Of a stretch of 64,000 nt of DNA, positions 19,021 to 36,846 are shown in pieces. The stretch's first letter is position 1. Each line of letters opens with the position of its first letter. The notes beneath the pieces are model-generated. The model was given only the letters and a program-made list of their open reading frames with translations, did not search any database and had not been told where the DNA came from. Origin of the DNA: Pseudochrobactrum saccharolyticum (GTDB lineage Bacteria; Pseudomonadota; Alphaproteobacteria; Rhizobiales; Rhizobiaceae); the NCBI RefSeq assembly GCF_008801715.1, contig NZ_VZPG01000003.1:124001-188000 (forward strand), in the 5' to 3' direction. The position numbers were made by a program, and so were the translations under genes.

Positions 19021-19074
19021 TCGTTTATATCTCCATAAGTCCGCCGCAAAGGCGGGCATTTTCAGGGCAAGAAA

Positions 19075-19595: not shown

Positions 19596-21866
19596 ATGGC
19601 TAACCTTACCTCAATCCTTACCGTCCGCTTGATCGATGCCGTTACGGCTCCGGCGCGTGCGGCCGCGAATTCGATCCGCGGGATCGGGACGGCGGTCGAT
19701 AGCACGAACGCACGCCGTCTCGCTATCGGCGGCGCGATTAATACGATGGTGACGGACGTTGGTAAGGCTACGGATCGCCTTCGCCGGAACTTTAATAATA
19801 TGACTAGCGGGCTTTCTATGCCCGCTAGTTTCCTCACGTTCTTCGGTGCCCGCTCGGTTTATGACTTTGAGAAAACGTCGAACGCCTTGCAGGCCGTCAC
19901 CAACGTAACCGACGTGCAGCGCAAATCGATCCAGAGTTACGCGAAAGAGCTAAACGAGCTTTTCCCCGCGACAAACTCCGAGATCATGAAGGGCACTTTT
20001 GAACTCGGCCGCGCCGGTTTTAAGTACGAACAGATTATGGGTTCCATGAAAGGAATGCTTAATCTCGCGCTGGCCGGTGACATTGAAATTAAAGAAAGCG
20101 CGGATATTGCTACGAACGTCCTGACAGCGATGCGTCTGCCTATGAAGACGGTTGAGCAGGCTTCGGAAAGCCTGACCCGCGTAAACGACGCTCTCGCCTA
20201 TGCCGCGTCAAACTCGAATACCGACGTGCGCATGATGGGCGAAACCTTCAAGTATGTCGGCCCTATGGCTGCGGCTGCGGGTATGTCCATTGAGGAAGTA
20301 TCCGCCGCGTCAATGGTTATGGCGCGAAATGGTATCCGTGCGAGTGAGGCCGGTGTCGCAATGCGATCCGCTCTCGTTCGTATGGTTCGCCCGACAAAAC
20401 CAATGCTCGCCGCTCTTGAGCGTTTGAACATCAACGTCAACGACTTTGTAAAAGGCGGACGTCAGATCAGCGCACAAGATATTGTCTCCTCGCTCGCTGT
20501 GGACGGTATTGATGCGACTTCATACGCAAAGCAGATTGAGCAGGTTCTCAATGACCCTTCGCTCAAAAAATCATTGAGCAAACTTACCGAGAAGCTGACG
20601 AACGTTATCGGCGGCGACGGCTCCGTTATGGATAAGTCGAAGCTCGCCGAAACGATTACTGAGGCTTTGACGGCCGCAGGCTCCGAGGTCGATTTCTTCG
20701 GGTTTATCCGTACCCTTCGCGAGAAGGGTGCCGACCTCGGCGATATCGCTCGCGTCTTCGACGCTCGGCAGGGTTCGCGCTTGATTACGCTCCTCGCTGG
20801 CGATCTCGATAAAGCTCTGTCTGATGTTGAGAATGGAGCTAAAGGCGCGACCGACCGCATGGCTAAAATCATGATGAAAGGTATCGTCGGAGATTGGGCG
20901 GCGTTCACTGCATCAATCGAAAACCTGTTCGTAATGCTTGGTGAAAGCGGCGTTCTCAAGACCGCCTCGGAGGCTATCAAGTGGGCGGCAGACGGGTTAA
21001 AATCTCTATCTGAGAGCAATCCTAAACTGCTAGAGTTCGGGACGTATGCGATCATGATTATGGCCGCTCTCGGCCCGATTGCTATCATCGGCGGCGGCGT
21101 GATCTCATTCTTCCTGTCGCTTGTCTCGCTGATGATGCTCGCCACCAAGTTCGGGCGTGGAGCGCTTGCTGTTGCCGCTGCAACAATGGGTGTTACGGGC
21201 GCGACAGCAGCGGGCGCTGCGGGCACGGCTGCGGCAAGCGCTACGGTTGCCGGTGCAGCAACAAAGGGAACCTCTCTTTTTGGTAAAGTCATCAAGGGAG
21301 CAGGCGTCGTTGGTACAGCGTACACGATTAACGAAATACTCGGTGCTATAGACCCAGAGGGCAATCTATGGGGGCTTACGAGCGGAATTGATGCGTGGAT
21401 GAAAGAAAAGACGGGCATCGACCCGTCAAAGATCGGCGCAAGCGAACGCGTCGCCCCGCAAGTATCACCTGAGGAAGGTCGCGCCCATGATCTTGCCGAA
21501 TGGCAGGCTCGACAGGCCGCGATTGATACTCGCCTCTCGCAGATCGAAAAGAATACTCACCCGTCTATGCGCGACATGCCAAACATGGAGCGCGAGAATT
21601 TGCAGGCAGAGCGGACAATGCTCGACCAGCAAATTAATGACATGACGCCGCAAGGCGACGCGGCGGGCGGTGCTTCGGCAGCAAACGAGACAATGGGGGC
21701 GTTCAACGCGGCTTTTGATGTTCAAGCGGCCGAGGCAAGGGCGAAAGCCGTTGCTCTCGCGCGAGAACTTCAAGCGATCCTCTCGACCACGATAAGCCCG
21801 ACCATACGGCCAAAAATGGATATGTCGGCAATTTCAGGCGTCCATGCGGATACAGGAGTTGAATAA
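19596..21866 (+). CDS. Tail tape measure protein, TP901 family (P2 gpT position)
   Basis: A 756-residue tape measure that sets tail length. The TP901 core is plain: VYDFEKTSNALQAVTNV near residue 88, then LGRAGFKYEQIMGS and VTDMRMMGETFKYVGPMAAAAG-like VRMMGETFKYVGPMA near 210, and ASMVMARNGIRASEAGVAMRSAL. Hydrophobic segments lie at about 485-525, as expected for a protein that enters the inner membrane. A coiled C-terminal part follows. The start directly touches the E' stop. Confidence 0.95.
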   Translation: MANLTSILTVRLIDAVTAPARAAANSIRGIGTAVDSTNARRLAIGGAINTMVTDVGKATDRLRRNFNNMTSGLSMPASFLTFFGARSVYDFEKTSNALQAVTNVTDVQRKSIQSYAKELNELFPATNSEIMKGTFELGRAGFKYEQIMGSMKGMLNLALAGDIEIKESADIATNVLTAMRLPMKTVEQASESLTRVNDALAYAASNSNTDVRMMGETFKYVGPMAAAAGMSIEEVSAASMVMARNGIRASEAGVAMRSALVRMVRPTKPMLAALERLNINVNDFVKGGRQISAQDIVSSLAVDGIDATSYAKQIEQVLNDPSLKKSLSKLTEKLTNVIGGDGSVMDKSKLAETITEALTAAGSEVDFFGFIRTLREKGADLGDIARVFDARQGSRLITLLAGDLDKALSDVENGAKGATDRMAKIMMKGIVGDWAAFTASIENLFVMLGESGVLKTASEAIKWAADGLKSLSESNPKLLEFGTYAIMIMAALGPIAIIGGGVISFFLSLVSLMMLATKFGRGALAVAAATMGVTGATAAGAAGTAAASATVAGAATKGTSLFGKVIKGAGVVGTAYTINEILGAIDPEGNLWGLTSGIDAWMKEKTGIDPSKIGASERVAPQVSPEEGRAHDLAEWQARQAAIDTRLSQIEKNTHPSMRDMPNMERENLQAERTMLDQQINDMTPQGDAAGGASAANETMGAFNAAFDVQAAEARAKAVALARELQAILSTTISPTIRPKMDMSAISGVHADTGVE

Positions 21867-22288
21867 TGCTTATGAATTTCGGAGCCTTAAAATTCGAGGT
21901 CTGGCCGTTCAACCCGACTGCAACAAGTAGCGAGAGCGGCGGTGAATATGTCGAAAAACCAATAATGGGTCGACGTCCGCCGCTCGAATTTGTTGGAGAA
22001 GCGGCTGAGAATTTTACGATCTCAGTAAAATTATTCCCTGCCAAGCTCGGTGGCCTTGGATCATTAGAGCAACTTCATACAATCCGCAGAAGCGGTATGC
22101 CCCAATATCTCATGCGTGGCGACGGTGTTCCTCTCGGATGGTTCGTGGTGACGAGCGTTGGGGCTGAAAGCTCCTACCTCGATGCGAAGGGCGTCGGGCA
22201 AGTGATCGACGTTGACATATCTCTGCGGCGCGCAGATGCGCCGCAGGATGCCGACTTCTTTGCAACAGTGATAGGAATGCTCGGATGA
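21866..22288 (+). CDS. Tail protein, P2 gpU family
   Basis: A 140-residue gpU-like protein. It starts with MNFGALKFEVWPFNPT and has PIMGRRPPLEFVGEAAENF and LGWFVVTSVGAESSYLD, the usual gpU pattern. It is a minor tail protein near the tip. One-base and four-base overlaps connect it to the tape measure and to gpX. Confidence 0.9.
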   Translation: MLMNFGALKFEVWPFNPTATSSESGGEYVEKPIMGRRPPLEFVGEAAENFTISVKLFPAKLGGLGSLEQLHTIRRSGMPQYLMRGDGVPLGWFVVTSVGAESSYLDAKGVGQVIDVDISLRRADAPQDADFFATVIGMLG

Positions 22289-22524
22289 TTTACACCGGCA
22301 ACACGGAAACCGTCGTCGTAAAGGGTGAGGCAATTACCCTTTCCCTGCTGGTCTGGCGTCGGTTCAAGCGGCAAAGCATGGGTTTTGTCGAGCGCGTCCT
22401 CGATATGAACTCCGGCCTTGCCGATATCGGCCCGATTATTCCGGTCGGAACCTCTATTCGCTTCCCGATTGACGCTCCTGAATTGAAAAACAAAGAGCGA
22501 AACGTCGTCCATCTTTGGGATTGA
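22285..22524 (+). CDS. Tail protein, P2 gpX family
   Basis: A 79-residue LysM-like gpX protein. It has the signature of a short helix after GEAITLSLLVWRRFKRQ, then RVLDMNSGLADIGPIIPVGT, and ends with IRFPIDAPE and a Trp near the C terminus. It is a minor tail component. It overlaps gpU by four bases and is followed three bases later by gpD. Confidence 0.9.
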   Translation: MIYTGNTETVVVKGEAITLSLLVWRRFKRQSMGFVERVLDMNSGLADIGPIIPVGTSIRFPIDAPELKNKERNVVHLWD

Positions 22525-22527
22525 TCC

Positions 22528-23580
22528 ATGAATACAACGGTTCGCAAGACGACCTGTATCGTCATGGTTGACGGGCAGGATATTTCAAGCGCGCTCCTCC
22601 CCCGTCTGATAAATCTAAGCATTACAGATAAGGCGGGGGTGTCGAGCGACACGATACGGATTGAGCTTGATGATGGAGAGGGCGCGATCCTTTTGCCAAG
22701 CGAGGGGGCAATTCTGAGCGTTTCCCTCGGCTCAAATGACGCCGGTGCCGCCGTGGTCTTTCGCGGCGTCGTCGATGAAGTCCGCTCCTCCGGCTCCCGC
22801 TCTGCCGGTCGTGTGCTCTCAATCTCCGGAAAGGGATTTGACGCGCAGGGCAAGGCAAAGCAGCAACAGCAAAAGCATTGGGACGGTAAGAACCTCGGCG
22901 ATGTATTCTCGGAGGCAGCAAAGCTCGGCGGGATTGAAAACGTCCGCGTCGATGAAGAACTGAAATCTATCATCCGCCCTTATTGGGCGATGCAAGGCGA
23001 GAGCTTTATCCATTTCGGAGAGCGGGTCGCCCACGAGATCGGCGCGACATTCAAGATTTCGAATGACGTTGCAATCCTCGCGAAACGAAACGGCGGGCGC
23101 TCGGCCGGAGGCCAGCAGCTTGCCGTTGTTCAGGCTGTTTACGGCGAAAATCTTATCTCGTGGGATATCGCACCCGTGACCGGTCGCCCTCGTTACTCGA
23201 AGGCTAGAACACGATGGTACGATAAAAAAACAGGGACGTGGAAAACCGAGGAAGTCGAGATCGAGGACGAAAAAGCCAATGCCGAATTTACGAGCCGGTA
23301 TCCGGCCGGAGACGCGGACGAGGCGAAGCGCAATTCCGAGAGCCGGAAGGCCGACAGCGAGCGCGGCAAGGGTGATGGGTCGATCACGATTGACGGCAAT
23401 TCGGAAGCACAGCCAGAGGGAACGGTAGTTCTTACTGGCGCTCGTCCAGGTATCGATGGGACATATCGAACTGAAACCGTCCAACATGATTTTTCCCGCA
23501 ATACAGGTTGGATAACGCGTATTGATCTAAAGCAACCTAGTGGGGATGCCGGCAAGGATAAACGGAAAACCTCTGGCTAA
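22528..23580 (+). CDS. Phage late control / tail hub protein, P2 gpD family
   Basis: A 350-residue gpD protein that forms the baseplate hub together with the spike. It has the family features: DISSALLPRLINLSITDKAG, then RVLSISGKGFDAQGKA, then MQGESFIHFGERVAHEIGATFKI and the C-terminal VLTGARPGIDGTYRTETVQHDFS. In P2 D is the last tail gene, and so it is here. The transcript is followed by a strong inverted repeat and then by genes with sigma-EcfG-type promoters. Confidence 0.92.
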   Translation: MNTTVRKTTCIVMVDGQDISSALLPRLINLSITDKAGVSSDTIRIELDDGEGAILLPSEGAILSVSLGSNDAGAAVVFRGVVDEVRSSGSRSAGRVLSISGKGFDAQGKAKQQQQKHWDGKNLGDVFSEAAKLGGIENVRVDEELKSIIRPYWAMQGESFIHFGERVAHEIGATFKISNDVAILAKRNGGRSAGGQQLAVVQAVYGENLISWDIAPVTGRPRYSKARTRWYDKKTGTWKTEEVEIEDEKANAEFTSRYPAGDADEAKRNSESRKADSERGKGDGSITIDGNSEAQPEGTVVLTGARPGIDGTYRTETVQHDFSRNTGWITRIDLKQPSGDAGKDKRKTSG

Positions 23581-23627
23581 TCAATATCTCTTTAATAAAG
23601 AATATTCTTACAGCCTCTAGCAATAAC

Positions 23628-23659
23628 ATTAAGCCCGAATGCATCGTTTCGGGCTTAAT
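23628..23659 (+). terminator. Inverted repeat between gpD and the DUF982 gene, likely bidirectional terminator
   Basis: A perfect 12-base stem (ATTAAGCCCGAA / TTCGGGCTTAAT) has an 8-base loop. It has no clear T run in the + direction. It lies between the convergent ends of gpD and the DUF982 gene and could stop transcription from both sides. Confidence 0.6.
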
Positions 23660-23668
23660 GCTGAACAA

Positions 23669-23971
23669 CTAAACTCGTAATTGGTCGTTATTTGAAAGTG
23701 CAGAAGCCGACCAAGGAATTGGAGGATTAGGTATATCTAGTATGTCACGTTTACTGGCGAATCCCTTTATCGCGTTTCGTGCCGCTATTACTGGTTTTAC
23801 CCCGTCATAGGCATCACAACATGCCTTCCAGGCAGTTTCATAAATGAGGTCGCGATCGTCTTCGGGCCATTCATGTAAGAACATAAGTGCATCGTAAACG
23901 TTGGTAAGTTCTAATGTTAGATAACGTCCTTTTTTAATGTAAACTGGTTTGTCAAACAAACGGTCGCTCAC
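23669..23971 (-). CDS. DUF982 family protein
   Basis: A 100-residue protein with the DUF982 pattern of Hyphomicrobiales: FDKPVYIKKGRYLTLELTNVYDA, then FLHEWPEDDRDLIYETAWKACCDA, then PVIAARNAIKGFA. The family is plant-bacteria and soil-bacteria specific and its function is unknown. The start is GTG 23971 with a TAGGAGG site. A possible sigma-EcfG promoter (GAAAC-N16-CGTT) lies at 23989-24013, which would put it in the stress regulon of this element. Confidence 0.85.
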   Translation of the reverse strand: MSDRLFDKPVYIKKGRYLTLELTNVYDALMFLHEWPEDDRDLIYETAWKACCDAYDGVKPVIAARNAIKGFASKRDILDIPNPPIPWSASALSNNDQLRV

Positions 23972-23988
23972 AGAAACCTCCTATTCTG

Positions 23989-24013
23989 AACGAAGAGTTG
24001 GGATGACGGTTTC
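23989..24013 (-). promoter_or_regulatory. Possible sigma-EcfG promoter for DUF982 gene
   Basis: Read on the minus strand it is GAAAC, 16 bases, CGTT. One base differs from the GGAAC-N16-CGTT form. It lies 18 bases before the GTG start of the DUF982 gene, so the leader would be very short. Confidence 0.45.
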
Positions 24014-24106
24014 GATTTAGTGATAGAAATCATTTTTTCAAGACAGATCTTGATAGAGCGATATACCTGCCTTGGTTTAATCAGTTTCAATGCGGCTGTT
24101 GACCAT

Positions 24107-24131
24107 GGAACATTCTTCCTTTGCCTCTGTT
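24107..24131 (+). promoter_or_regulatory. Sigma-EcfG-type promoter of first small membrane gene
   Basis: GGAAC (24107-24111), 16 bases, TGTT (24128-24131), then TGTATTAATA. It lies 21 bases before the start of the 42-residue membrane protein and just before its GGAGGAAG ribosome site. Confidence 0.65.
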
Positions 24132-24152
24132 GTATTAATAGGAGGAAGTAAA

Positions 24153-24281
24153 ATGGATGGCCAAGAGTATATCTCAGTATATTATTTATTAATTTCAATA
24201 TTAGTGATCGCTGTTTTTATGTTGGTGTTTTCTATGTGGCAAATGCGAAAAAATTGCTGGCGCGATAAGGATAAAAAATAA
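24153..24281 (+). CDS. Small single-span membrane protein (copy A)
   Basis: A 42-residue protein with one strong membrane helix (about residues 12-31) and a basic C-terminal end (WQMRKNCWRDKDKK). GGAGGAAG precedes ATG 24153. It shares the EYISxY start, the VFxxWQMRK end of the helix and the overall size with a second gene 60 bases downstream, so the two are paralogues. A sigma-EcfG promoter lies upstream. Function unknown; an anti-stress membrane peptide or a holin-related role are guesses. Confidence 0.75.
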   Translation: MDGQEYISVYYLLISILVIAVFMLVFSMWQMRKNCWRDKDKK

Positions 24282-24297
24282 CATAAGAAACCTGATC

Positions 24298-24322
24298 GGA
24301 ACTTTCCTAGCCTCCGCCAGTT
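24298..24322 (+). promoter_or_regulatory. Sigma-EcfG-type promoter of second small membrane gene
   Basis: GGAAC (24298-24302), 16 bases, AGTT (24319-24322). It lies between the paired small membrane genes, 20 bases before the ATG of the second, so each copy has its own promoter. Confidence 0.62.
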
Positions 24323-24342
24323 TACAATACAGGAGGCAGATT

Positions 24343-24477
24343 ATGAAAGTTTATGAGTATATTTCTATCTATAATGGTGCAGTCGCATTAACTACAATAA
24401 CAGTTGTGATGATTGTCTTTTTGACATGGCAAATGCGTAAGCGACGCAACAAAAAACAACTGACATCAAAAGAATAA
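24343..24477 (+). CDS. Small single-span membrane protein (copy B)
   Basis: A 44-residue protein starting MKVYEYISIYNG with a membrane helix at about residues 11-29, followed by WQMRKRRNKKQLTSKE. AGGAGG stands upstream of the ATG. The EYIS and VFLTWQMRK parts match the first copy, while the middle of the helix has changed. A terminator follows before the endolysin. The conserved flanks suggest selection on the ends rather than the helix. Confidence 0.75.
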   Translation: MKVYEYISIYNGAVALTTITVVMIVFLTWQMRKRRNKKQLTSKE

Positions 24478-24482
24478 ATCAT

Positions 24483-24506
24483 ACCCCGCTTATGCGGGGT
24501 TTTTCT
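24483..24506 (+). terminator. Terminator between small membrane gene and endolysin
   Basis: Stem ACCCCGC / GCGGGGT with loop TTAT, followed by TTTTTCTTTTA. It separates the stress-type small gene from the lysis cassette. Confidence 0.85.
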
Positions 24507-24522
24507 TTTAGGAAGGAACGCT

Positions 24523-25275
24523 ATGCGTGAGACCTTAACGACCGCGCTTGACTTGATCTTTGGTCATGAGGGCGGATATGTGAATAATCCGAAAGACCCG
24601 GGCGGCGCTACAAAGTACGGCATAACACATAGGACGTTGGCAGCACACCGCGGCGTACAAAGTGTTACGCCTGCGGAAGTGAAAACACTGACCAAAGAAG
24701 AAGCTATCGTGATTTACCGGCGCTCTTATTGGGTGCAATCCGGCGGCGATCTGCTTCCGGTTGGTATTGATTTTATGGCATTTGATTATGGTGTGAACAG
24801 CGGTCCCGCACAGGCGGTTAAATCGCTGCAGCGCGTGGTTGGTGTGACTGCGGACGGCATTGTCGGCGGCCAGACTGTCGCTGCGGTTAAAGCTTATAAG
24901 GGCGATCTGATCGGCGCTTATGCTGCTGAGCGTCTTCGGTTCATGCGGACGTTGAAAGCATGGCCGGTGTTCGGTAGGGGCTGGCGCGAGCGGGTGGTGA
25001 GCGTGGAAGCGCAAGCACGTCAGCTCGTCAAAGGCAAAGTGACAATTACTGACGCGTATACTGCTTCAGCCAAGGCCAACCCCAAAGACCAATCTCTCAC
25101 AGAAACCTTAAAAAAACCAGAGGCGTGGGCATCGATTGGCGGTCTTTTATCCGGTCTTGGCGGCATGGCTTCCGGATCGGGGCCGATCCAGTGGGCGCTT
25201 GCAATCATCATGGTTGGAGCGTTCGCTACAGGTGCATATTTCCTTATTAAGCGCATGCAGGATCAGGCGGCATGA
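24523..25275 (+). CDS. Endolysin, glycoside hydrolase family 108 with membrane anchor
   Basis: A 250-residue peptidoglycan hydrolase. The GH108 catalytic motif is HEGGYVNNPKDPGGATKYGIT with Glu16 as the catalytic acid. The peptidoglycan-binding half follows (ALDYGVNSGPAQAVKSLQ-like FDYGVNSGPAQAVKSLQRVVGV, then DGIVGGQT). Residues about 222-244 form a membrane span near the C terminus, unusual for a soluble endolysin, so it may stay anchored until the membrane is breached. It starts the lysis cassette and overlaps Rz by four bases. Confidence 0.9.
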   Translation: MRETLTTALDLIFGHEGGYVNNPKDPGGATKYGITHRTLAAHRGVQSVTPAEVKTLTKEEAIVIYRRSYWVQSGGDLLPVGIDFMAFDYGVNSGPAQAVKSLQRVVGVTADGIVGGQTVAAVKAYKGDLIGAYAAERLRFMRTLKAWPVFGRGWRERVVSVEAQARQLVKGKVTITDAYTASAKANPKDQSLTETLKKPEAWASIGGLLSGLGGMASGSGPIQWALAIIMVGAFATGAYFLIKRMQDQAA

Positions 25276-25526
25276 GGATCAGTCTTCAACACATCACAGG
25301 TGCGGTCATCGGAGGGGCAGTTTCAGGCCTCTTTTTTTATGCGCTCGGACAACATGACGGCAAGCAGGATGCAGCACTCAAAGTTGCACAGGCCGTCACA
25401 CAAGCAAATCAGAACAGGGCAGGGATTAATGAGGAAGTTGGGAACATGGACAGCTACAGCCTTTGCCGTGAGCTTGGCGGGGTGCGCGACGAGTGCGAGC
25501 AATTGCGCAGGCTGGCAGAAGATTAA
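25272..25526 (+). CDS. Rz-like inner-membrane spanin
   Basis: An 84-residue protein with an N-terminal membrane helix (residues about 7-26) and a charged, helical periplasmic part ending with ELGGVRDECEQLRRLAED. Size and layout fit a short i-spanin. It overlaps the endolysin stop (ATGA). The outer partner Rz1 is encoded in another frame over its 3' half, the classic arrangement. Confidence 0.7.
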   Translation: MRISLQHITGAVIGGAVSGLFFYALGQHDGKQDAALKVAQAVTQANQNRAGINEEVGNMDSYSLCRELGGVRDECEQLRRLAED

Positions 25527-25629
25527 CCTTAAACCGGAAACGGCGGTTTATCTGCCGGGCAATGACATGAATGCAGGCAAAAGCATTGCCGGTCACAACG
25601 CCTATGGGAAGAAAGCGGGGTGCTGGTAA
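25429..25629 (+). CDS. Rz1-like outer-membrane lipoprotein spanin, overlapping Rz out of frame
   Basis: A 66-residue lipoprotein. It starts MRKLGTWTATAFAVSLAGCAT, where LAGC is the lipobox and the Cys is residue 19. The mature part is short and rich in Asn, Gly and Lys. The gene begins inside Rz in a different frame, with an AGGG site before ATG 25429, and runs 103 bases beyond Rz. Rz and Rz1 together fuse inner and outer membranes at lysis. The longer upstream in-frame extension lacks a signal peptide and was not used. Confidence 0.78.
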   Translation: MRKLGTWTATAFAVSLAGCATSASNCAGWQKINLKPETAVYLPGNDMNAGKSIAGHNAYGKKAGCW

Positions 25630-25946
25630 TGGAGGATCCATTAACTTCATATGGGCTTAAGGCGTCGGTTGTTATTGCAGGGTTCGCTGGCGGAGTACTT
25701 CGCGCTTTATCACACCAAAACTATACCTTTCGTGAGGCTGTAGCATCACCTGTATGTGGTGCCCTCGCGGCTGGCTATCTCACCAGCCCGCTAGTTCACT
25801 ATCTCAATGCTATTCATTTCCCACTACCGCCCGATGATGGTACCAATGTGACAATTCATGCTGGAGCATTTCTTGTTGGCATCTGCGCAATGTGGATAAG
25901 CGATGCTATTTTTGAGCTCATCAGCAGGTGGATTAAAAAACAATAG
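25629..25946 (+). CDS. Probable phage holin (multi-span membrane protein)
   Basis: A 105-residue protein with about three hydrophobic segments (near residues 10-25, 38-56 and 77-97), ending with basic residues RWIKKQ. It is placed at the end of the lysis cassette. The ATG overlaps the stop of Rz1 (TAATG). Size and topology fit a holin that opens the inner membrane for the endolysin. Function is inferred from topology and place; a GTG at 25620 is an alternative start. Confidence 0.6.
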   Translation: MEDPLTSYGLKASVVIAGFAGGVLRALSHQNYTFREAVASPVCGALAAGYLTSPLVHYLNAIHFPLPPDDGTNVTIHAGAFLVGICAMWISDAIFELISRWIKKQ

Positions 25947-26163: not shown

Positions 26164-26799
26164 CTAATTGAGTATTTTTAGCTTATATTCACTCAAGGGT
26201 CTTTGCAGCTCTTTTGCAATTTCCCATGGCGCTGTCATCCACATATTGAATTCTTCCAGCTCAGTCAGAATGACTGGCATAGCTTTTGGGTGGATAGGGG
26301 CGACGACTGAATTCGGTTCACTGGTCAGGAATGCAAACAGGGTGTGATTTTGCTTGCCCTCTGATGGCTTTCTAACACCAATCCATTCTGTCCAGATGCC
26401 TGCGAAGAAAAACAGTGGTTCCGTTTCATCAATTGCAAACCAGTGCAGCGGCTTCTTTCCTGTCTTCGGGGCAGGCTCCTGTGCATACTCGCTGAATGAT
26501 GTCGCCGGAATAAGGCACCGATTTGCAATGGTCAGCCATTGCTGCCAATGACGTGACGAGATATTGCGCACATTGGTAATACCTTTGTCAGCTGCGCCTT
26601 TGACATACATTTGTGGGGTTGGCATGCCCCATCTGCTTAATGCTAACTCTGGTCCATCCAGATTGTTGCGCAATATTGGCGCCGGATAATCAGGGTAGAT
26701 ATTTTCATCAAATGATGCGCCGTTTGTTAGATCAATATATGACCCGACGGCCTGCTTCAGCTGAGCACTATGCATTTTAATATTATAGATATTGCACAT
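26164..26799 (-). CDS. SRAP-family abasic-site protein (YedK/HMCES-like)
   Basis: A 211-residue SOS-response-associated peptidase family protein. It crosslinks to abasic sites in single-stranded DNA through Cys2 (MCNIYN start) and shields them. Visible active-site residues are Cys2, Asn76 (TNVRN), Glu104 (IPATSFSEYA) and His170 (APIHPKAMPV). LSRWGMP and FAGIWTEW are further family marks. A sigma-EcfG promoter lies upstream, so this copy appears tied to the general stress response. A degenerate second copy lies at 32051-32681. Confidence 0.92.
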   Translation of the reverse strand: MCNIYNIKMHSAQLKQAVGSYIDLTNGASFDENIYPDYPAPILRNNLDGPELALSRWGMPTPQMYVKGAADKGITNVRNISSRHWQQWLTIANRCLIPATSFSEYAQEPAPKTGKKPLHWFAIDETEPLFFFAGIWTEWIGVRKPSEGKQNHTLFAFLTSEPNSVVAPIHPKAMPVILTELEEFNMWMTAPWEIAKELQRPLSEYKLKILN

Positions 26800-26820: not shown

Positions 26821-26845
26821 AACGCAGAAACGTACTTTTGGTTCA
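26821..26845 (-). promoter_or_regulatory. Sigma-EcfG-type promoter of SRAP gene
   Basis: On the minus strand: TGAAC (26845-26841), 16 bases, CGTT (26824-26821), followed by TCTAAAG. It is 22 bases before the SRAP start and divergent from the nepR promoter. Confidence 0.7.
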
Positions 26846-26950
26846 AATCGCGAATATCAACGGCACATCAAATGATAGATTAAGGTTGTGAAACGCGCTG
26901 ATGAGGTTCGTTTTGCATAATTTGATTGTTCTGTAATTTTTAAAAAAACA

Positions 26951-26975
26951 GGAACCCAACGCTTGCGAATGCATT
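26951..26975 (+). promoter_or_regulatory. Sigma-EcfG-type promoter of nepR-ecfG
   Basis: GGAAC (26951-26955), 16 bases, CATT (26972-26975). The -10 part has A for G. It lies about 80 bases before nepR. Autoregulation by EcfG is usual for this locus in Alphaproteobacteria. Confidence 0.55.
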
Positions 26976-27056
26976 TACTTACACGAACACCAAAGCATGG
27001 TCATCACAGAATCGCAGGAAAATCAGAGTGCATAAAGATTATTGAAAAGAACTATC

Positions 27057-27227
27057 ATGGAAAATAAATCAAAAAAGCTAAAAATATGGGAGACTGCAGC
27101 TTTCAGCCCAGATCAAGGCATAGGAACAAAGTTGCGGTCACTATACAACTCTCTAAGAGATGAGGAAATACCTGAGAACTTAATGAAGTTACTAAATGAA
27201 TTGGATAAAGCAGAAAAATCTAAATAA
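27057..27227 (+). CDS. nepR: NepR-type anti-sigma factor
   Basis: A 56-residue protein with the NepR core GIGTKLRSLYNSLRDEEIP followed by ENLMKLLNELD. NepR holds sigma EcfG inactive until phosphorylated PhyR captures it. The ATG at 27057 is chosen over a TTG at 27042. ecfG follows 34 bases later. This is normally a chromosomal core gene, so finding it inside a prophage region is unusual. The Pro-Glu pair that follows the helix-1/2 loop is conserved in the family. Confidence 0.88.
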   Translation: MENKSKKLKIWETAAFSPDQGIGTKLRSLYNSLRDEEIPENLMKLLNELDKAEKSK

Positions 27228-27261
27228 AGATTTAAGTGGTATTGCTGGGAGATGTTTAACT

Positions 27262-27813
27262 ATGAGTGACAATCCGTCGTGTTTTAAAAAGAGCCTAATA
27301 GAGTCGCTGCCGGATTTGCGCGCTTTTGCAAGATCTCTTATTAGAAATGCGGATAAGGCTGATGATTTGGTACAGGATACAATTTTAAAGGCGTGGGCAA
27401 AACAAGATTCCTTTGAAGTTGGCACGAACATTAAAGCTTGGCTTGTCACAATACTGCGCAATGAGTTTTATAGCCAGATGAGGAAGCGTGGACGTGAAGT
27501 GCAAGATAGTGAAGGCACTTATAGTAACGCCATGGCAATACATCCCGCTCAATATGGTTCACTGGATTTAAAGGATTTTCGAAAAGCGCTTGATCTACTC
27601 CCTGACGATCAGCGTGAGGCGATCATCTTAATAGGCGCATCAGGTTTTTCTTATGAAGAGGCCGCTGAAATCTGTGATTGTGCAATCGGAACCATAAAAA
27701 GTCGTGTTTCAAGAGCAAGGTCACGATTACAAGAGTTACTTGAGATCGAGAGCCTCGGACATTTTGGCCCGGATTTATCGTCCGCTCATGTAGCTCTTAG
27801 GAGTTTTGTATAA
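27262..27813 (+). CDS. ecfG: General stress response sigma factor EcfG
   Basis: A 183-residue ECF sigma factor. Region 2 reads DKADDLVQDTILKAWAKQDSF and GTNIKAWLVTILRNEFYSQ; the GTNIKAWL segment is typical of ECF15/EcfG. Region 4 reads LPDDQREAIILIGASGFSYEEAA and GTIKSRVSRARSRL. It directs RNA polymerase to GGAAC-N16-CGTT promoters; a dozen such sites occur around it. ATG 27262 is chosen because the upstream part would overlap nepR. The kinase gene follows 65 bases later. NepR-EcfG pairing is clear, but phyR is not in the window. Confidence 0.92.
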   Translation: MSDNPSCFKKSLIESLPDLRAFARSLIRNADKADDLVQDTILKAWAKQDSFEVGTNIKAWLVTILRNEFYSQMRKRGREVQDSEGTYSNAMAIHPAQYGSLDLKDFRKALDLLPDDQREAIILIGASGFSYEEAAEICDCAIGTIKSRVSRARSRLQELLEIESLGHFGPDLSSAHVALRSFV

Positions 27814-27878
27814 GGACTCCTTAAAAAATAATATTAAAGTCGCCCTGCAGTGTTTTTAAGAGACATTCGTATCAGTTG

Positions 27879-29030
27879 ATGCTTAAAAGCAAGTTATGCA
27901 ACTGCCTCTTAAGCCTTTTGGTGATTCCTTTGAATAATGTTCAATACTTTTTATCTGAGGTTGGAATATCAGCGGATGAAATAAGGGCTTTTGATTGGTC
28001 GAAAACACCACTCGGTGATCCTGAAAAATGGCCAGTGCAGTTAAAGACGACTGTCCAGCTTATGCTCGCATCACGCTTCCCAAAAGCCATTGTCTGGGGT
28101 GAAGAGTATACAACCCTCTATAACGATGCATTCAGAAATATCCTTGGTGCCAAGCAAAATTGCATGGGACAATCTTTCAGAGATATATGGAGTGAAGCTT
28201 GGCCAAATATTGAGCCAATGATACTTGATGCCTATCAGGGTAAGGCGACATTTATCGAAGATTTCCCGTTAGTTATTAATCGTCACGGTTATCCAGAAAA
28301 ATGCTATTTTACATTTTGTTATAGCCCGATCATTGATGAAACGGGGCGTGTTTTGGGCATGATTGATACCGTCATTGAAATGACGGAAAAAGTCGAAGCT
28401 GTTCAGAACGCCGTCGTCATTAATGCTGAATTATCCCACAGAATTAAAAATACATTCAGTGTGGTTCAAGCGCTAGTAAATCAAACATTTCGTAAAGCTG
28501 ATTTAAAAGAGGCGGTTCCAGTGTTTTCACGAAGGCTTCACGCTTTAGCAAAAGGACATGAAATTTTACGCTTGGGCGGCACCTCTAATGGAACAATTGA
28601 GCAAGTTATCACGTCGGTTTTTGAATCTTTAGCTAGTAAAAGCAAAATAGTTTTAGAAGGGCCTCAAATTCTGATCGGTCCTAAAGGTGTAATGTCAACT
28701 TCACTACTAATAAATGAACTGACTACGAATGCTATCAAATACGGTGCTTTATCAGTCCCTGATGGCTCCATATTAGTTAATTGGAGAGTCAGCAATGAAG
28801 GTGATACTTCCACATTAATTTTAGAGTGGCGTGAGCGAAATGGGCCGATAGTCAAAGTTCCGACTACAAAAGGTTTTGGCTCACGTTTAATTAAAATGGG
28901 GCTTATGGGGATTGGCGCTTCAAATGTTTATTATAATGAAGATGGTTTGCATGCCGTCTTTACCGCGCCATTCCAACAAATCCAAGAAGAAGGTAGGCTA
29001 TACAGCTCTGGAAGCCGTTTGACACGATAG
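27879..29030 (+). CDS. HWE-family sensor histidine kinase with PAS domain
   Basis: A 383-residue soluble kinase. A PAS domain spans about residues 35-170 (WGEEYTTLYNDAFRNILGAK, CYSPIIDETGRVLGMIDTV). The phosphoacceptor motif LSHRIKNTFSVVQALVNQT has His187. The N box INELTTNAIKYGALS and WRERNGP, with a C-terminal G box GFGSRLIKMG, mark the HWE/HisKA2 class. Kinases of this class phosphorylate PhyR in the general stress response. It lies next to nepR-ecfG, so the partner is expected to be the host PhyR. The start is ambiguous because an upstream TTG and several in-frame Leu codons exist. Confidence 0.88.
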   Translation: MLKSKLCNCLLSLLVIPLNNVQYFLSEVGISADEIRAFDWSKTPLGDPEKWPVQLKTTVQLMLASRFPKAIVWGEEYTTLYNDAFRNILGAKQNCMGQSFRDIWSEAWPNIEPMILDAYQGKATFIEDFPLVINRHGYPEKCYFTFCYSPIIDETGRVLGMIDTVIEMTEKVEAVQNAVVINAELSHRIKNTFSVVQALVNQTFRKADLKEAVPVFSRRLHALAKGHEILRLGGTSNGTIEQVITSVFESLASKSKIVLEGPQILIGPKGVMSTSLLINELTTNAIKYGALSVPDGSILVNWRVSNEGDTSTLILEWRERNGPIVKVPTTKGFGSRLIKMGLMGIGASNVYYNEDGLHAVFTAPFQQIQEEGRLYSSGSRLTR

Positions 29031-29124: not shown

Positions 29125-29334
29125 TTATGTATTTCGGGATAATTTCCTATACCATTCATTGATCTGCTCTCTTACCTGTTCAGGTGTTAGATTGTAGCGC
29201 TGTTGTATTTTATGCTCCAAAGCATTCTGTTCGCCAGCTATTTCGTCTAGTTCCTCAGATGTTATGTTGCCCCATTGTTCACGGATGTTTACTTTATAAC
29301 GCCGCCAGTCCGCTTTGATTTCATTCCAGTCCAT
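29125..29334 (-). CDS. CsbD-family stress protein (copy 1)
   Basis: A 69-residue CsbD-like protein: MDWNEIKADWRRYKVNIREQ, then GNITSEELDEIAGEQNALEHKIQQRY, then EQVREQINEWYRKL. CsbD proteins are small four-helix bundles of unknown function and are sigma-B or EcfG dependent in many bacteria. Copy 2 lies at 32778-32981. It follows a small membrane-protein gene, probably in one transcript. Confidence 0.85.
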   Translation of the reverse strand: MDWNEIKADWRRYKVNIREQWGNITSEELDEIAGEQNALEHKIQQRYNLTPEQVREQINEWYRKLSRNT

Positions 29335-29755: not shown

Positions 29756-31135
29756 CTATGCACATCGCAATTCGCCAAGATAATTCGCACACCAATGATT
29801 GATATCATTTTCCTGCAGGTGCTTAATCATAGAAGAATAACGATATTGTCGTTCATTCTGGGACATGTTCAATGCATGACGAATAGCCTGCGAAACGGAC
29901 TCTTTGTCGTAAGGGTTGACCAGCAGAGCGCCGTCCAGTTCGCGTGATGCGCCTGCAAATCGAGAAAGCACTAATACACCAGGGTCGTTTTTATCTTGTG
30001 CTGCAACATATTCTTTCGCAACCAAATTCATACCATCCCGAAGCGGTGTTACTAATCCGACCTTTGCGTGACGATACAGGCCTGCGAGAATATTGCGATT
30101 TAATGAGCGGGTAATGTAACGGATAGGCGTCCAATCTACAGCAGCAAGTGCGCCATTGACGCGACCGGCATATTCAGCCACCATACTTTGCATCTCAGCA
30201 TATTCCGGTACTTCTGAACGGGACTTTGGTGTCACCTGCAGAAAAGTTACTTTGCTTTTATACTCGGGATTGTTCTGTACGAAATGCTCAAATGCTTCTA
30301 TTCGGTTTGTTATTCCCTTTGAATAATCAAGACGGTCGACCCCGATAATGAGGTCTCGTCCTGTCATGCTTTCGCGCATACGCCGGACGAGGGCACTCTT
30401 TTCTGACCGTTGGGCAGTGTCAGTGAATTTATCTGTTTCAATACCAATCCCGAATTTCCCGACTTTAAATTCATGACTGCCGGTTTTGAACCGGTTTTCG
30501 CCTAAGGGAATAGCAATATTTTCCCGCGAGATGCAGCCGGTGAAGTTTTCAAGGTCATAATCTGTTTGAAAGCCAATCAAATCATAGGACACTAACCCCC
30601 GCATAATGGTTTCATGAACAGGGAGTGTGAAGACGATATCTGCCGAAGGCCAAGGGATATGGAGGAAAAAACCGATCCTGTTTTTAACACCTAAACGGCG
30701 TAGTTCCGCAGCCAGAGGGATGAGATGGTAGTCGTGAACCCAAATAATATCATCAGGCTGAATAAGTGATTGTAACTGTTCAGCAAAAAGACGATTGACG
30801 CGGAAATAACCAGCCATATCTTTTCGCTCATAATCAATGAGATCCAGCCGGTAATGACACAGAGGCCATAGCATACGGTTAGCGAAACCGGCATAATACT
30901 CATCAACATCGGTGCTGGCTAAATCCAACAGCGCATATTCAATATTATCGTGTTTTTGAATGTTTAGCTGAGGTTGCTGTAGGTTATCGGATATTACCTT
31001 CCCGGACCAGCCCATCCAGAGGCCGCCCTTTTCCTCCAGTGCAGCTTGCAGAGCAACAGCAAGACCTCCGGCCGGCGCATTCCCATGTTTATCCGGCAAA
31101 GAAACCCGGTTCGATATGATAATTAGTTTTCCCAT
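29756..31135 (-). CDS. otsA: Trehalose-6-phosphate synthase
   Basis: A 459-residue GT20 glycosyltransferase that joins UDP-glucose and glucose-6-phosphate to trehalose-6-phosphate. Marks are the start IIISNRVSLPDKHGNAPAGGLA, IWVHDYHLIPLAAELRR, GFFLHIPWPSADIV, GVDRLDYSKGITNRI and the C-terminal LVTPLRDGMNLVAKEYVAAQ. Length matches E. coli OtsA. otsB lies 19 bases upstream on the same strand, forming a two-gene trehalose operon. Trehalose synthesis is a common general-stress output in Rhizobiales. Confidence 0.96.
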   Translation of the reverse strand: MGKLIIISNRVSLPDKHGNAPAGGLAVALQAALEEKGGLWMGWSGKVISDNLQQPQLNIQKHDNIEYALLDLASTDVDEYYAGFANRMLWPLCHYRLDLIDYERKDMAGYFRVNRLFAEQLQSLIQPDDIIWVHDYHLIPLAAELRRLGVKNRIGFFLHIPWPSADIVFTLPVHETIMRGLVSYDLIGFQTDYDLENFTGCISRENIAIPLGENRFKTGSHEFKVGKFGIGIETDKFTDTAQRSEKSALVRRMRESMTGRDLIIGVDRLDYSKGITNRIEAFEHFVQNNPEYKSKVTFLQVTPKSRSEVPEYAEMQSMVAEYAGRVNGALAAVDWTPIRYITRSLNRNILAGLYRHAKVGLVTPLRDGMNLVAKEYVAAQDKNDPGVLVLSRFAGASRELDGALLVNPYDKESVSQAIRHALNMSQNERQYRYSSMIKHLQENDINHWCANYLGELRCA

Positions 31136-31154: not shown

Positions 31155-32009
31155 TTATACTTTATTTGTAGGATGATTGATGGCGGGGTCGGGAACTCTC
31201 AGGGTTCCTTGTGCTGCAATGACTTCGGTGAGCCAGTTTCTGAGCGCGGAAGGCGACGATATAAGGCTCATTGCACAACTTTGTTGGAGTGATGCGCCGA
31301 TTTTCACAGATGCGCCTGAATATTTGTGCGCTGCAGCAAACATAGCTTCATCGGTTAAATCATCACCAAAAGCGATTGGTATGCGAGACTGGAAAGCCGG
31401 TTTAGCCATGAAGTGATCTAAAGCTGAACCCTTGTCAGAACCGGCAGGCCGTAATTCAGCAACCATTTTTCCATGTTGCACAGTCCAGTTCTCGTCTGTT
31501 ATTGAAGCTGCTTTATTGATTATATCCGTGGTCGTTTTCTGCAGGCGGGGATTGCTTCGATAATGCAACGCCAGAGCGACTTCTTTATCTTCCACTTTTA
31601 TATCCGGATAATCAGTAAGCGTATCTTCGATATAGCGTTTCGCTGTGCGAAAACTATCGTCGATTTTAAGCCCTCTTATACTCCCGTCGCTGTTACGAAT
31701 TTGAGCGCCATGCAGGCCTGCAATTTCAAAGCTATGGGAGGGAAATATTGTATCAACAAAGCTGACCGGACGTCCTGTTATGAGAGCTAATGCGCCGTCA
31801 AGATGCCAGTGCAAGTGAGATAGAATGTCATATAATTGTTGCGGAAGTTGTATTTTATCCGGTGCTGCGGCGATATCCAGCAGCGTTCCGTCTAAGTCAA
31901 AGAAAAATGCATGCTTTGATAGTGAGCCTTTATCATTTTTCAAATGGCTTAACTCAGGGATTAAACCTTGATTGTATTCAATGTTTTCCCTTGTTAGGGT
32001 AGTACTCAT
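31155..32009 (-). CDS. otsB: Trehalose-6-phosphate phosphatase
   Basis: A 284-residue HAD-superfamily phosphatase. The DxD motif is FFFDLDGTLLDIA with Asp38 and Asp40. ALALITGRPVSFVD and the C-terminal GDDLTDEAMFAAA are further family marks. It converts trehalose-6-phosphate to trehalose. The start is ATG 32009, with AAAGGT about 13 bases upstream; the track of upstream residues is not needed. otsA follows closely. It lies behind the degenerate SRAP copy, with which it may share a transcript. Confidence 0.94.
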   Translation of the reverse strand: MSTTLTRENIEYNQGLIPELSHLKNDKGSLSKHAFFFDLDGTLLDIAAAPDKIQLPQQLYDILSHLHWHLDGALALITGRPVSFVDTIFPSHSFEIAGLHGAQIRNSDGSIRGLKIDDSFRTAKRYIEDTLTDYPDIKVEDKEVALALHYRSNPRLQKTTTDIINKAASITDENWTVQHGKMVAELRPAGSDKGSALDHFMAKPAFQSRIPIAFGDDLTDEAMFAAAHKYSGASVKIGASLQQSCAMSLISSPSALRNWLTEVIAAQGTLRVPDPAINHPTNKV

Positions 32010-32050
32010 TGTCTGTGTTACCTTTACTGAAAAAGAAACAGCGACCAATT

Positions 32051-33169: not shown

Positions 33170-33194
33170 GGAACCAAGATAGCCCTGTAACATT
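33170..33194 (+). promoter_or_regulatory. Sigma-EcfG-type promoter of the SDR gene
   Basis: GGAAC (33170-33174), 16 bases, CATT (33191-33194). The CATT -10 variant is the same as at nepR. It lies 150 bases before the chosen SDR start, so the leader would be long. Confidence 0.5.
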
Positions 33195-33344
33195 CCTTTT
33201 ATGAGCGGTGGCCGTGTCAACCGAACATGATGGTAATGAAAAACACTTTGATTTTTTCGGTTTCTCATTGTGGCCAACGAAATGGCAGACGAGTTTCTAT
33301 CCCATCCGGCTATCGTTCACATAATTATTTTATGGGAGAGAGCC

Positions 33345-34313
33345 GTGTCACAATCTTCAAAAAACTCAAATAAAGCAAAAATTACTGCCTCCCGACAAAG
33401 GAAGCTGCAAGCGCAGGTTTCCGATAAGAAAACGAAACATTCATACGAGTCTGAAACTGGTGCACGTGAATATCCGGTTCCACCTTTTCCGAAGCAAAAT
33501 ATAGCTAAGCCAGGGTCTGAAGCAGTTTTGAAACCCGAGCCCATGTACGATGCGCCGTACTACTCAGGATCAGGAAAACTACAGGATAAGGTAGCACTTA
33601 TTACAGGTGGAGATTCCGGCATTGGGAGAGCCGTGGCAGTTTTATATGCGCGTGAAGGTGCAACCATTGTAGTTTTATATCTCGAGGAGAAAAAAGACGC
33701 CGAGCTTACAAAGCAAATGATCGAGAAAGAGGGGCGTGAATGCCTCTTAATTCAGGGAGATGTGCGGGATCTGGAATTTTGTGAAAAAGCTGTTTCCGAT
33801 GCTGTAAAAACCTTTGGCAGGCTTGATGTCCTGGTTAATAACGCAGCTTTTCAATTACATGCTAACCGCTTTCAGGATTTGTTGCCGGAGCATTTCGATG
33901 AGACAATACAGACCAACTTGTATGGTTATTATAATATGACAAAAGCTGCATTGCCTTTTTTGAAAAAAGGAGCGGCGATTGTTAATACCGGTTCCGTCAC
34001 AGGATTGAGGGGAAGCAAGAAGCTCGTTGATTATTCAATGACCAAAGGTGGTATTCACGCCTTTACCCGTGCACTAGCCGCTAATTTGCTATCAGACGGC
34101 ATTCGGGTGAATGCGGTAGCTCCCGGGCCTGTATGGACCCCGCTCAATCCTGCCGATAAAGAGGCTGCTGATGTTGCTGAGTTTGGTGCTGACACCCCAA
34201 TGAAAAGACCCGCGCAGCCGGAAGAACTTGCACCCGCTTATGTGTTTTTAGCTTCTGAGCAAACAGCGAGCTACATAACGGGAGAGATTTTACCTGTAAT
34301 AGGTGGATATTGA
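33345..34313 (+). CDS. Short-chain dehydrogenase/reductase, YhdF/YghA-like
   Basis: A 322-residue SDR with a long, basic N-terminal extension of about 70 residues. The NAD(P) motif TGGDSGIG is at 87-94, NNAA near 165, and the catalytic Ser217, Tyr230 and Lys234 (DYSMTKGG) are present. The form matches YhdF-type general stress oxidoreductases that also carry an extension with PPFPKQ and YDAPYY-like segments. GTG 33345 with GGGAGAG is my start. GTG 33270 or ATG 33282 would add 21-25 residues. Substrate unknown. Confidence 0.9.
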   Translation: MSQSSKNSNKAKITASRQRKLQAQVSDKKTKHSYESETGAREYPVPPFPKQNIAKPGSEAVLKPEPMYDAPYYSGSGKLQDKVALITGGDSGIGRAVAVLYAREGATIVVLYLEEKKDAELTKQMIEKEGRECLLIQGDVRDLEFCEKAVSDAVKTFGRLDVLVNNAAFQLHANRFQDLLPEHFDETIQTNLYGYYNMTKAALPFLKKGAAIVNTGSVTGLRGSKKLVDYSMTKGGIHAFTRALAANLLSDGIRVNAVAPGPVWTPLNPADKEAADVAEFGADTPMKRPAQPEELAPAYVFLASEQTASYITGEILPVIGGY

Positions 34314-34572: not shown

Positions 34573-35169
34573 TTATGGCGTGGTATTGGTTTGCGGAGTA
34601 GCCGGAGCGGGGGATGCCGGCATTTCCGTTGGGCTCTCTTTGTTTGTAGCTGCGGGATCAGCTACACCTTCTGGGAAAAGCGATGAACGGTCGAAAGTCG
34701 GCGCAGCATTCAGCTCTTCTTTGGTTGTTTTAATGACTAGCCATTTCTTACCATCGCTACGCATAGCAAGCTGTAATTGATCTGGGCTTACCGCTACATC
34801 TTTTTCACCTACACCCAAAAAACCACCAACACCGATTACAGCAGCTTCAATCTGACCTTCGGGACTCGTAATAAGGTCATTCAATTTACCGACAGACTGT
34901 GCGCCATTTTCCGAGCTATCATAAACGGATTGTCCGATGAATGATGAGACAAGAAGCTGCCCTGGCTTTGCTTCCAAAAAGCCAACCTTATTGGTTTCAG
35001 CAGCTGTATCCGAAGGTTGATTTCCGAACATGTTCTGCGTTTTAACGGTGGTTTGAAGCTGCTGCTCCATTGGCGCAGTTGGCGTGGTCGTGGTGTCGCT
35101 AGTCTGAGCATAGGCCGCACTACCAATAAACAAGGCACACGACGTTGCCAGAAGTTTAGCTCTCAACAT
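34573..35169 (-). CDS. Secreted PRC-barrel domain protein
   Basis: A 198-residue protein with a signal peptide (MLRAKLLATSCALFIGSAAYA) and a PRC-barrel (GQLLVSSFIGQSVYDSSENGA, VGKLNDLITSPEGQIEAAVIG, FLGVGEKDVAVSPDQL). PRC-barrel proteins of this exported kind are often stress-induced in Rhizobiales. The linker regions are Thr, Pro and Ala rich. AAAGGAGA precedes ATG 35169. A sigma-EcfG promoter lies at 35204-35228. Role unknown. Confidence 0.9.
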   Translation of the reverse strand: MLRAKLLATSCALFIGSAAYAQTSDTTTTPTAPMEQQLQTTVKTQNMFGNQPSDTAAETNKVGFLEAKPGQLLVSSFIGQSVYDSSENGAQSVGKLNDLITSPEGQIEAAVIGVGGFLGVGEKDVAVSPDQLQLAMRSDGKKWLVIKTTKEELNAAPTFDRSSLFPEGVADPAATNKESPTEMPASPAPATPQTNTTP

Positions 35170-35203
35170 AAATATCTCCTTTGCACGTATGTTATAATTT
35201 GCT

Positions 35204-35228
35204 AACATTCGAGCGGCGGAATAGTTCC
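35204..35228 (-). promoter_or_regulatory. Sigma-EcfG-type promoter of the PRC-barrel gene
   Basis: On the minus strand: GGAAC (35228-35224), 16 bases, TGTT (35207-35204), then AGC. It lies 35 bases before the start. Confidence 0.7.
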
Positions 35229-35239: not shown

Positions 35240-35614
35240 TCAGTTTCTTTCAGCTTGGCTTTTTAGAGCTGCATGATGTTCGATTTTATCTCTTAAGTTT
35301 TTGAGTTCCTCTAATGGTAGATGCTCAATTCCAATGACCCTTTCATCGGCATTTTTTAGCGCGTCAATCAACTCATCAACCTTTGTGTGAAGAGCGCATG
35401 AGTCTCTATTTTGTGAGTTTTGAATAAGAAAAACCATTAAGAAAGTTATTATTGTTGTAGTTGTGTTTACAATTAATTGCCATGTATCAGAATAATTAAA
35501 GAACGGACCTGATAGTGACCATATAATTATAAATGTAATCGCTATTAAAAATGAGCCATAGTGCCCAGTAATTTTGGATACTTCCTCGCTTAGATCAGAG
35601 AAATATTTACCCAT
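35240..35614 (-). CDS. Low-affinity iron permease-like membrane protein
   Basis: A 124-residue protein of the low-affinity iron permease family. GKYFSDLSEEVSKITGHYGSF is followed by two membrane segments (about 22-42 and 50-70) and NTTTTIITFLMVFLIQNSQNRD, a strong family mark, then a helical tail (KVDELIDALKNADERVIG). GGGAG precedes ATG 35614. I see no EcfG site upstream. Whether these bacterial members carry iron is not known; many sit in stress operons. Confidence 0.88.
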   Translation of the reverse strand: MGKYFSDLSEEVSKITGHYGSFLIAITFIIIWSLSGPFFNYSDTWQLIVNTTTTIITFLMVFLIQNSQNRDSCALHTKVDELIDALKNADERVIGIEHLPLEELKNLRDKIEHHAALKSQAERN

Positions 35615-35677
35615 TTCAATCTCCCATATTATTTTCATTTATTACATTATGTTATCCATTCATTGATACTGAATTTT

Positions 35678-35702
35678 GGAACAATCAGATTTCCTCCTCG
35701 TT
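35678..35702 (+). promoter_or_regulatory. Sigma-EcfG-type promoter of the PepSY-like and YflT-like genes
   Basis: GGAAC (35678-35682), 16 bases, CGTT (35699-35702). A perfect match. It lies 24 bases before the start, with AGGAGG between. Confidence 0.8.
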
Positions 35703-35726
35703 AATAAAATATCAACAGGAGGTTAT

Positions 35727-36795: not shown

Positions 36796-36820
36796 GGAAC
36801 TTAAATCTCTTCATATCGTT
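36796..36820 (+). promoter_or_regulatory. Sigma-EcfG-type promoter of the DUF892 gene
   Basis: GGAAC (36796-36800), 16 bases, CGTT (36817-36820). A perfect match, 26 bases before the start. Confidence 0.82.
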
Positions 36821-36846
36821 GTACTCAATTAACAGGAGGAGACAAG

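Follow-up and report, generated by a model that had tools for sequence, protein, structure and literature searches.

The 64,000-nucleotide stretch of Pseudochrobactrum saccharolyticum DNA analyzed here (the window; C3:124001-188000, from a 3.76-Mb genome in 12 contigs) raises the question of why a phage element should carry genes for NepR, EcfG and an HWE-family histidine kinase, parts of the general stress response (GSR) of Alphaproteobacteria. As the available text of PMC4814048 describes it, PhyR, NepR and EcfG form a partner switch, and activation of this switch is coordinated by HWE-family kinases, according to the accessible part of PMC12148442. We consider it probable, though far from certain, that a lineage of Pseudochrobactrum temperate phages carries a second NepR-EcfG switch together with an HWE kinase as a lysogenic-conversion regulon.

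Family assignments define the unit. The nepR gene (27057..27227, plus strand) encodes an anti-sigma factor with a NepR Pfam match of 37.5 bits (cut-off 25.7), and profile comparison matches it to the solved NepR chains 5uxx_B and 4qic_B. The adjoining ecfG (27262..27813, plus strand) encodes a GSR sigma factor of a phage clade, with the Pfam domains Sigma70_r2, Sigma70_r4_2 and PhyR_sigma2, a best profile match to 5uxx_A and about 71% identity to the host EcfG. In the kinase (27930..29030, plus strand, within an ORF open from 27876), PAS_4 accompanies an HWE_HK match of 64.5 bits (cut-off 22.8), and the catalytic motifs HRIKN, NELTTNAIK, GFGSRL and WRE are present. Annotations in Pseudochrobactrum sp. 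XF203 and P. algeriensis name a NepR family anti-sigma factor, a sigma factor and a PAS domain-containing sensor histidine kinase; mapped onto the window, they give the probable starts 27057, 27262 and 27930. The preliminary description of this DNA had recognized these three genes, and that part stood, while its starts were corrected to the positions above and the cargo grew beyond the trio to about 17 kb (25.97-43 kb) of mostly stress-type genes. The NepR family and the kind of EcfG are those of the alphaproteobacterial GSR core; the phyR gene of that core is not in the locus.

The limits of the element are set by an exact 50-bp direct repeat, one copy at the 3' end of a tRNA-Phe gene (C3:109484-109533) and the identical attR copy at window 44415..44464 (plus strand). 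No other direct repeat of at least 15 bp linking 42.9-46.0 kb with C3:84001-188000 was found. Because this one att pair bounds them all, the prophage at tRNA-Phe measures about 59 kb and encloses phage genes, the nepR-ecfG-kinase unit and the integrase. From its start at C3:109484, upstream of the window, the element runs through early genes for a repressor, a Bet-like protein, exonuclease VIII, a RuvC-like resolvase and a DnaB-like helicase. Within the window, PHROGs assign packaging, head, contractile tail and lysis genes (126..25946, plus strand), in the order terminase, portal, head, contractile tail, then endolysin and holin. These last two genes lie upstream of the unit, and a tyrosine integrase gene (43172..44368, plus strand) lies downstream, at the far end of the element. 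Att repeats at a tRNA, found together with an integrase, a repressor and structural genes, identify a temperate phage. The att pair, the Pfam families and the lysis-gene and integrase flanks confirm the earlier placement of the trio inside a prophage.

The tRNA-Phe site is kept in all seven Pseudochrobactrum genomes and is nearly empty in two of the six others of the genus. Our comparison of the site covers five of those six, G001, G003, G004, G005 and G006. In the congener G006, about 1.2 kb separate the tRNA from a 13.2-kb stretch that corresponds to the window from 44607 onward at 91%; G004 has the same arrangement, with a window match at 80-83%. For G001 and G003 the right flank was not located within about 14.6 kb of the tRNA, which argues neither for nor against.

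The host has a GSR locus of its own. Its genome contains two NepR matches, the second within a canonical phyR-nepR-ecfG locus on C6 (L001), so the phage unit is not the only GSR locus of the host. A PhyR search of the genome returned one full match and five weak matches to the receiver part. PhyR was found at none of the four phage-type loci (L006, L043, L147, L148), versus 13 of 13 other EcfG loci (11 genomes) in the same search, in line with the preliminary statement that phyR is absent here. Among 394 genomes of the family, the best EcfG match reaches at least E 1e-78 in 165, and two matches at that level occur only in the source genome and in P. asaccharolyticum DSM 25619 (G005). With element ends in place, a canonical host locus elsewhere and a congener (G006) lacking the element at this site, the preliminary placement holds.

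A protein tree of phage and canonical copies, which the preliminary description had proposed, resolved the phage EcfGs as one clade: four phage rows among 40 form a single group (97/93; 95% of 200 bootstrap trees), and phyR is present at all 36 non-phage loci (34 genomes). An earlier tree of 23 rows recovered the same phage group (96/99). Long-branch attraction is possible, because the phage rows have long branches. Between the window and G005, pN is 0.13 and pS 0.74 for ecfG, and 0.16 and 0.85 for the kinase, with synonymous change near saturation. Phage ecfG and kinase are under purifying selection, and both proteins are kept.

Other phages and replicons carry the unit as well. The sigma protein recurs at 100% identity in three P. 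algeriensis plasmid records and at 99.5% in XF203. We examined one record of each, and in both the unit is part of a replicon deposited as a plasmid (433 kb and 464 kb); the integrase and tricarboxylate-transporter genes that come after it are those of the window. P. asaccharolyticum has a related element at the same tRNA-Phe, whose integrase is 92% identical; we infer the continuity of this element, because the integrase lies at the end of a contig other than that of the unit. Its phage body differs: the portal, tape-measure and tail-fibre proteins belong to other families, and the phage proteins of the window find few matches there. Yet both elements have in common the order lysis genes, nepR, ecfG, kinase, SRAP, DUF808, polymerase. 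Where the window has the integrase beside the polymerase, P. asaccharolyticum has a long ORF (L043 3-2150) that looks autotransporter-like by eye. The TerL of the IMG/VR record G061 is 99% identical to that of the window; the record is colinear with the prophage at mostly 80-94% nucleotide identity and has nepR-ecfG after the lysis genes at 68.5% identity. Hence the nepR-ecfG pairs in other prophages that the preliminary description had suggested seeking do exist, in G061 and in the P. asaccharolyticum element. The final 10 kb of G061 have 94% matches in two further records, G062 and G063, and all three records end exactly at the ecfG stop codon. Perhaps provirus-calling software trimmed these ends at a gene border, hiding such cargo from viral collections.

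Could the unit instead belong to a second, adjoining element, or to a host stress island trapped beside a prophage? The GC content is lower in the unit (0.40 from nepR to the kinase) and in the rest of the island (0.45) than in packaging and tail genes (0.54), and the stop of the IMG/VR contigs at ecfG points the same way. Yet a single att pair encloses phage genes, island and integrase, nepR-ecfG follows the lysis genes in three phages, and G006 lacks the whole element at the site. We therefore regard this explanation as highly improbable.

Broader searches delimit the distribution. A related Brucella haematophila prophage (G220; TerL 86%) has a serine recombinase gene adjoining the holin gene and no nepR-ecfG within the stretch read. 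Among 47 kinase relatives in named genomes, one has the phage-type unit (L070, P. asaccharolyticum). When viral contigs were searched more deeply for EcfG, 5 of 83 stretches were confirmed, namely the three known before, the provirus of P. asaccharolyticum again (L142), and L146. We did not count L146 (55%) as phage-borne; its ORFs read as an ordinary nepR-ecfG stretch beside phage genes. INPHARED yielded 36 records with sigma matches, none of which reached 60% identity; among the 20 listed of these 36, the maximum was 39%. The same collection gave one partial kinase match and no NepR match. Dinoroseobacter and Roseobacter plasmid records show a NepR annotation at a sigma match of 53-56% identity, and nepR-ecfG on accessory replicons is therefore not unique. 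The closest kinase homologues (40-57%) occur in Brucella tritici and relatives (L072, L073, L078, L083, L106), near two other ECF sigma genes (35-39% to EcfG), an SDR gene, a YflT gene and an orf35676 homologue, a chromosomal gene set that resembles part of the prophage island. In a Hyphomicrobiales metagenome-assembled genome (L087) and in genome G418 (L139), a related kinase, otsA, otsB and an EcfG-like gene (42%) lie within a few kb.

The published motif of R. etli EcfG1 is GGAAC-N16-CGTT (PMC3892343, accessible text). We scanned for GGAAC-Nk-[CT][AG]TT and compared k=16 with 18 other spacers. With k=16 the island contains six sites, where the other spacers average 0.28. It also has three instances of GGAAC-N16/17-CGTT against 0.11 expected, and none of 500 first-order simulations reached three. 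All six sites are correctly oriented. They precede nepR-ecfG (predicted promoter GGAAC-N16-CATT, 26951..26975, plus strand), the SDR gene with the Atu_At1 RNA (GGAAC-N16-CATT, 33170..33194, plus strand, 35 nt 5' of Atu_At1), the PRC-barrel gene (35228-35204, minus strand, 59 nt before the annotated start), the gene at 35730 (predicted promoter GGAAC-N16-CGTT, 35678-35702, plus strand), the DUF892 gene (predicted promoter GGAAC-N16-CGTT, 36796-36820, plus strand) and the ORF at 38083 (predicted promoter, 38163-38139, minus strand). In the phage body, a lipocalin gene has a further EcfG-type site 51 nt ahead of it (C3:121931), and a predicted promoter GGAAC-N16-TGTT (24107..24131, plus strand) lies 46 nt before the ATG at 24153 of a small ORF.

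Such sites recur in the other phages, before the lipocalin, DUF892, small-ORF and nepR genes of G061 and before the lipocalin, MgtC-family and nepR genes of G005, which has one more at 24352. In every pair of nepR, lipocalin, small-ORF and DUF892 promoters, 9 of 9 box bases are identical, with spacer agreement of 4-8 of 16 positions in diverged phage pairs and 13 of 16 in two close pairs. The case for these predicted promoters is made by position, direction and conservation. The preliminary proposal that the element brings its own sigma factor and anti-sigma factor, here with genes bearing EcfG-type promoters, is borne out as far as sequence can tell. A host site, GGAACTCTCAATATCTATATGCGTT (G000 C3:34423-34447, minus strand), resembles the phage lipocalin promoters and may mark a host lipocalin gene that was the source of the phage copy.

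Several points weigh against a phage-borne regulon. The exact motif shows no genome-wide excess, with 41 sites (4 of them inside the element) versus 39 for a reversed control. The excess at k=16 is small in the phage body (2 vs 1.0), G061 (4 vs 1.4), G005 (4 vs 1.6) and host-side sequence (4 vs 1.6), and neither otsA nor otsB has a spacer-16 site of its own. The G005 assembly splits integrase and unit over different contigs, and a pattern search of viral contigs, which there end at ecfG, found no kinase relatives. Host EcfG alone could serve the cargo promoters.

This last point leads to a different role for the pair, in which the cargo answers mainly to host EcfG and the phage genes tune or dampen the host response, phage NepR taking up host PhyR or EcfG. 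GGAAC-N16-CATT also precedes the canonical nepR of the host and the nepR genes of G061 and G005, a promoter form common to phage cargo and host nepR that suits such a role, as does M. extorquens, where two NepR paralogues bind PhyR and a sigma interaction was not detected, according to the accessible text of PMC4814048. The same text reports, however, that both NepR copies of S. meliloti bind the sigma factor, and the phage retains a sigma factor of its own under purifying selection, adjoining its own NepR and stress genes. We judge a dampening role unlikely, if worth keeping in mind.

The unit might also couple stress to induction, with the small ORF that adjoins the endolysin gene (24153..24281, plus strand; 42 aa and hydrophobic-looking, from the ORF list) conveying the action of EcfG to the lysis region. 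An EcfG-type site 46 nt before this ORF, present in the window and in the G061 group, would allow this; its boxes are conserved in G061 and L027, with spacer agreement of 6-7 of 16. But a Pfam search of the small ORF gave no match, the lysis region of P. asaccharolyticum has no such site and the cargo is of a protective kind. Steering of lysis by the unit is a weak proposal, because it rests on one conserved promoter, and coupling to induction seems to us very doubtful.

What, then, does the island encode? On its left lie an SRAP gene (SOS response-associated peptidase family, Pfam; 26164..26799, minus strand) and, beyond the kinase, a CsbD-like gene (29125..29334, minus strand; 26.9 bits, below the Pfam cut-off of 40, annotated as CsbD family in XF203 and P. 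algeriensis). Pfam identifies otsA, trehalose-phosphate synthase (29756..31135, minus strand), which has no counterpart in XF203, and otsB, trehalose-phosphatase (31155..32048, minus strand). The Atu_At1 small RNA (Rfam RF02496; 33205..33312, plus strand; 94.5 bits, gathering threshold 60) occurs once in the whole genome. Its 5' end at 33205 is 35 nt past the EcfG-type site at 33170, the expected transcript start for such a promoter, and it may be the leader of the SDR oxidoreductase gene (33270..34313, plus strand). Further family assignments are a PRC-barrel protein (34573..35208, minus strand), a low-affinity iron permease family protein (35240..35638, minus strand) and a YflT-domain general stress protein (36108..36686, plus strand). 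Counted with their promoters, the gene from 35730 (annotated PepSY in XF203) spans 35678..36068 (plus strand), the DUF892 ferritin-like gene from 36847 spans 36796..37320 (plus strand) and ORF 37772-38083, a plasmid stabilization protein by annotation of relatives, spans 37772..38163 (minus strand). Genes for an FAD oxidoreductase, a cold-shock protein, DUF808 and a Y-family DNA polymerase fill 38182..42946 (strand mixed or unspecified).

The island is modular, because XF203 lacks otsAB and P. algeriensis carries an IS3 element behind the kinase. A second SRAP gene is probably broken in the window, because a single 630-bp gene in P. algeriensis corresponds here to two overlapping shorter ORFs (32051-32681). 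This variability, and the shortened SRAP gene with it, would suit a host paralogue picked up by chance and carried as a passenger without function for the phage. Purifying selection, a single phage clade, conserved promoter boxes and recurrence on two phage bodies speak against that, and we hold it to be quite improbable. As in moron-type cargo, the genes are accessory, vary between relatives (XF203, P. algeriensis), are absent from the G220 prophage and have predicted promoters of their own. A second cargo slot, in the gap between replication and packaging genes (L004 17982-18518; L044 14377-16131; G061 28229-28695), contains other stress-type genes: lipocalin in three phages, DUF892 in G061, and an MgtC-family and a transglycosylase-associated protein in P. 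asaccharolyticum. Several of these are preceded by EcfG-type sites.

Returning to the reading we favor, of a second switch that serves lysogenic conversion, phage EcfG would be held by phage NepR in the lysogen. Under stress, the single PhyR of the host, phosphorylated by host kinases, would take up phage NepR, and the phage kinase may supply added input to host PhyR. Once free, phage EcfG would transcribe the operon that encodes it, along with the stress genes of the phage, and would probably also serve host GSR promoters that share this sequence. The lysogen would gain in survival; binding, phosphotransfer, expression and benefit are steps that we infer. Survival of the lysogen fits better than lytic growth because the cargo is of a protective kind. 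In S. melonis, PRC-barrel, ferritin-like and general-stress proteins are EcfG-dependent, according to the available text of PMC6599016. Carriage of the prophage probably changes the stress survival of the cell.

A bolder version would make the unit a private phage branch of the GSR, in which the phage kinase reports a cue that the host does not sense, host PhyR relays it, and survival genes respond to phage NepR-EcfG, which by way of the small ORF also governs a choice between staying and lysing, the unit being a regulatory cassette that moves between unrelated phage bodies. We consider this rather unlikely.

How does the unit compare with known systems? It resembles the GSR core, as represented by the host copy on C6, in its NepR and EcfG families, its nepR-ecfG order and the GGAAC-N16-CATT before nepR, and differs in being prophage-borne, in lacking phyR at the locus, in the attached HWE kinase gene and in an EcfG only about 71% identical to that of the host. 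EcfG paralogues of a non-canonical kind, some of them on plasmids (R. etli EcfG2, M. extorquens), are likewise second copies on an accessory replicon in genomes whose chromosome has the canonical one, and extra EcfG copies, plasmid ones included, were already known (PMC3892343, PMC4814048, accessible text). R. etli EcfG2, however, has no nearby anti-sigma or response-regulator gene as far as the available text of PMC3892343 goes, whereas the phage unit travels with nepR and a kinase. Ordinary morons, or lysogenic-conversion genes, share with this cargo their place between phage modules, their own promoters and their variability between relatives, but here a sigma factor, an anti-sigma factor and a kinase are part of the cargo itself. 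Phages of the related hosts Rhizobium and Sinorhizobium (phiM9, the RHph group) have ECF-like sigma genes, which differ from phage EcfG in reaching at most 39% identity in the 20 listed of 36, with no NepR match in the collection. Sporulation sigma factors encoded by Bacillota phages are likewise phage homologues of a host regulatory sigma factor (PMC9429907, accessible text). They belong to another sigma family and another host program. We know of no NepR-type partner for them. Among open-licence papers, as far as their accessible text extends, we found no report of a phage-borne nepR-ecfG.

If our reading is true, a temperate phage carries both the stress switch of its host (a sigma factor, an anti-sigma factor and a kinase) and genes under promoters that respond to this switch. 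Extra EcfG copies in Alphaproteobacteria, which the accessible part of PMC3892343 calls not satisfactorily explained, would in some cases find an explanation here. Our reading would also make testable whether phages rewire the GSR of Gram-negative hosts, in the way that phage sigma factors bear on sporulation in Bacillota (PMC9429907, as available).

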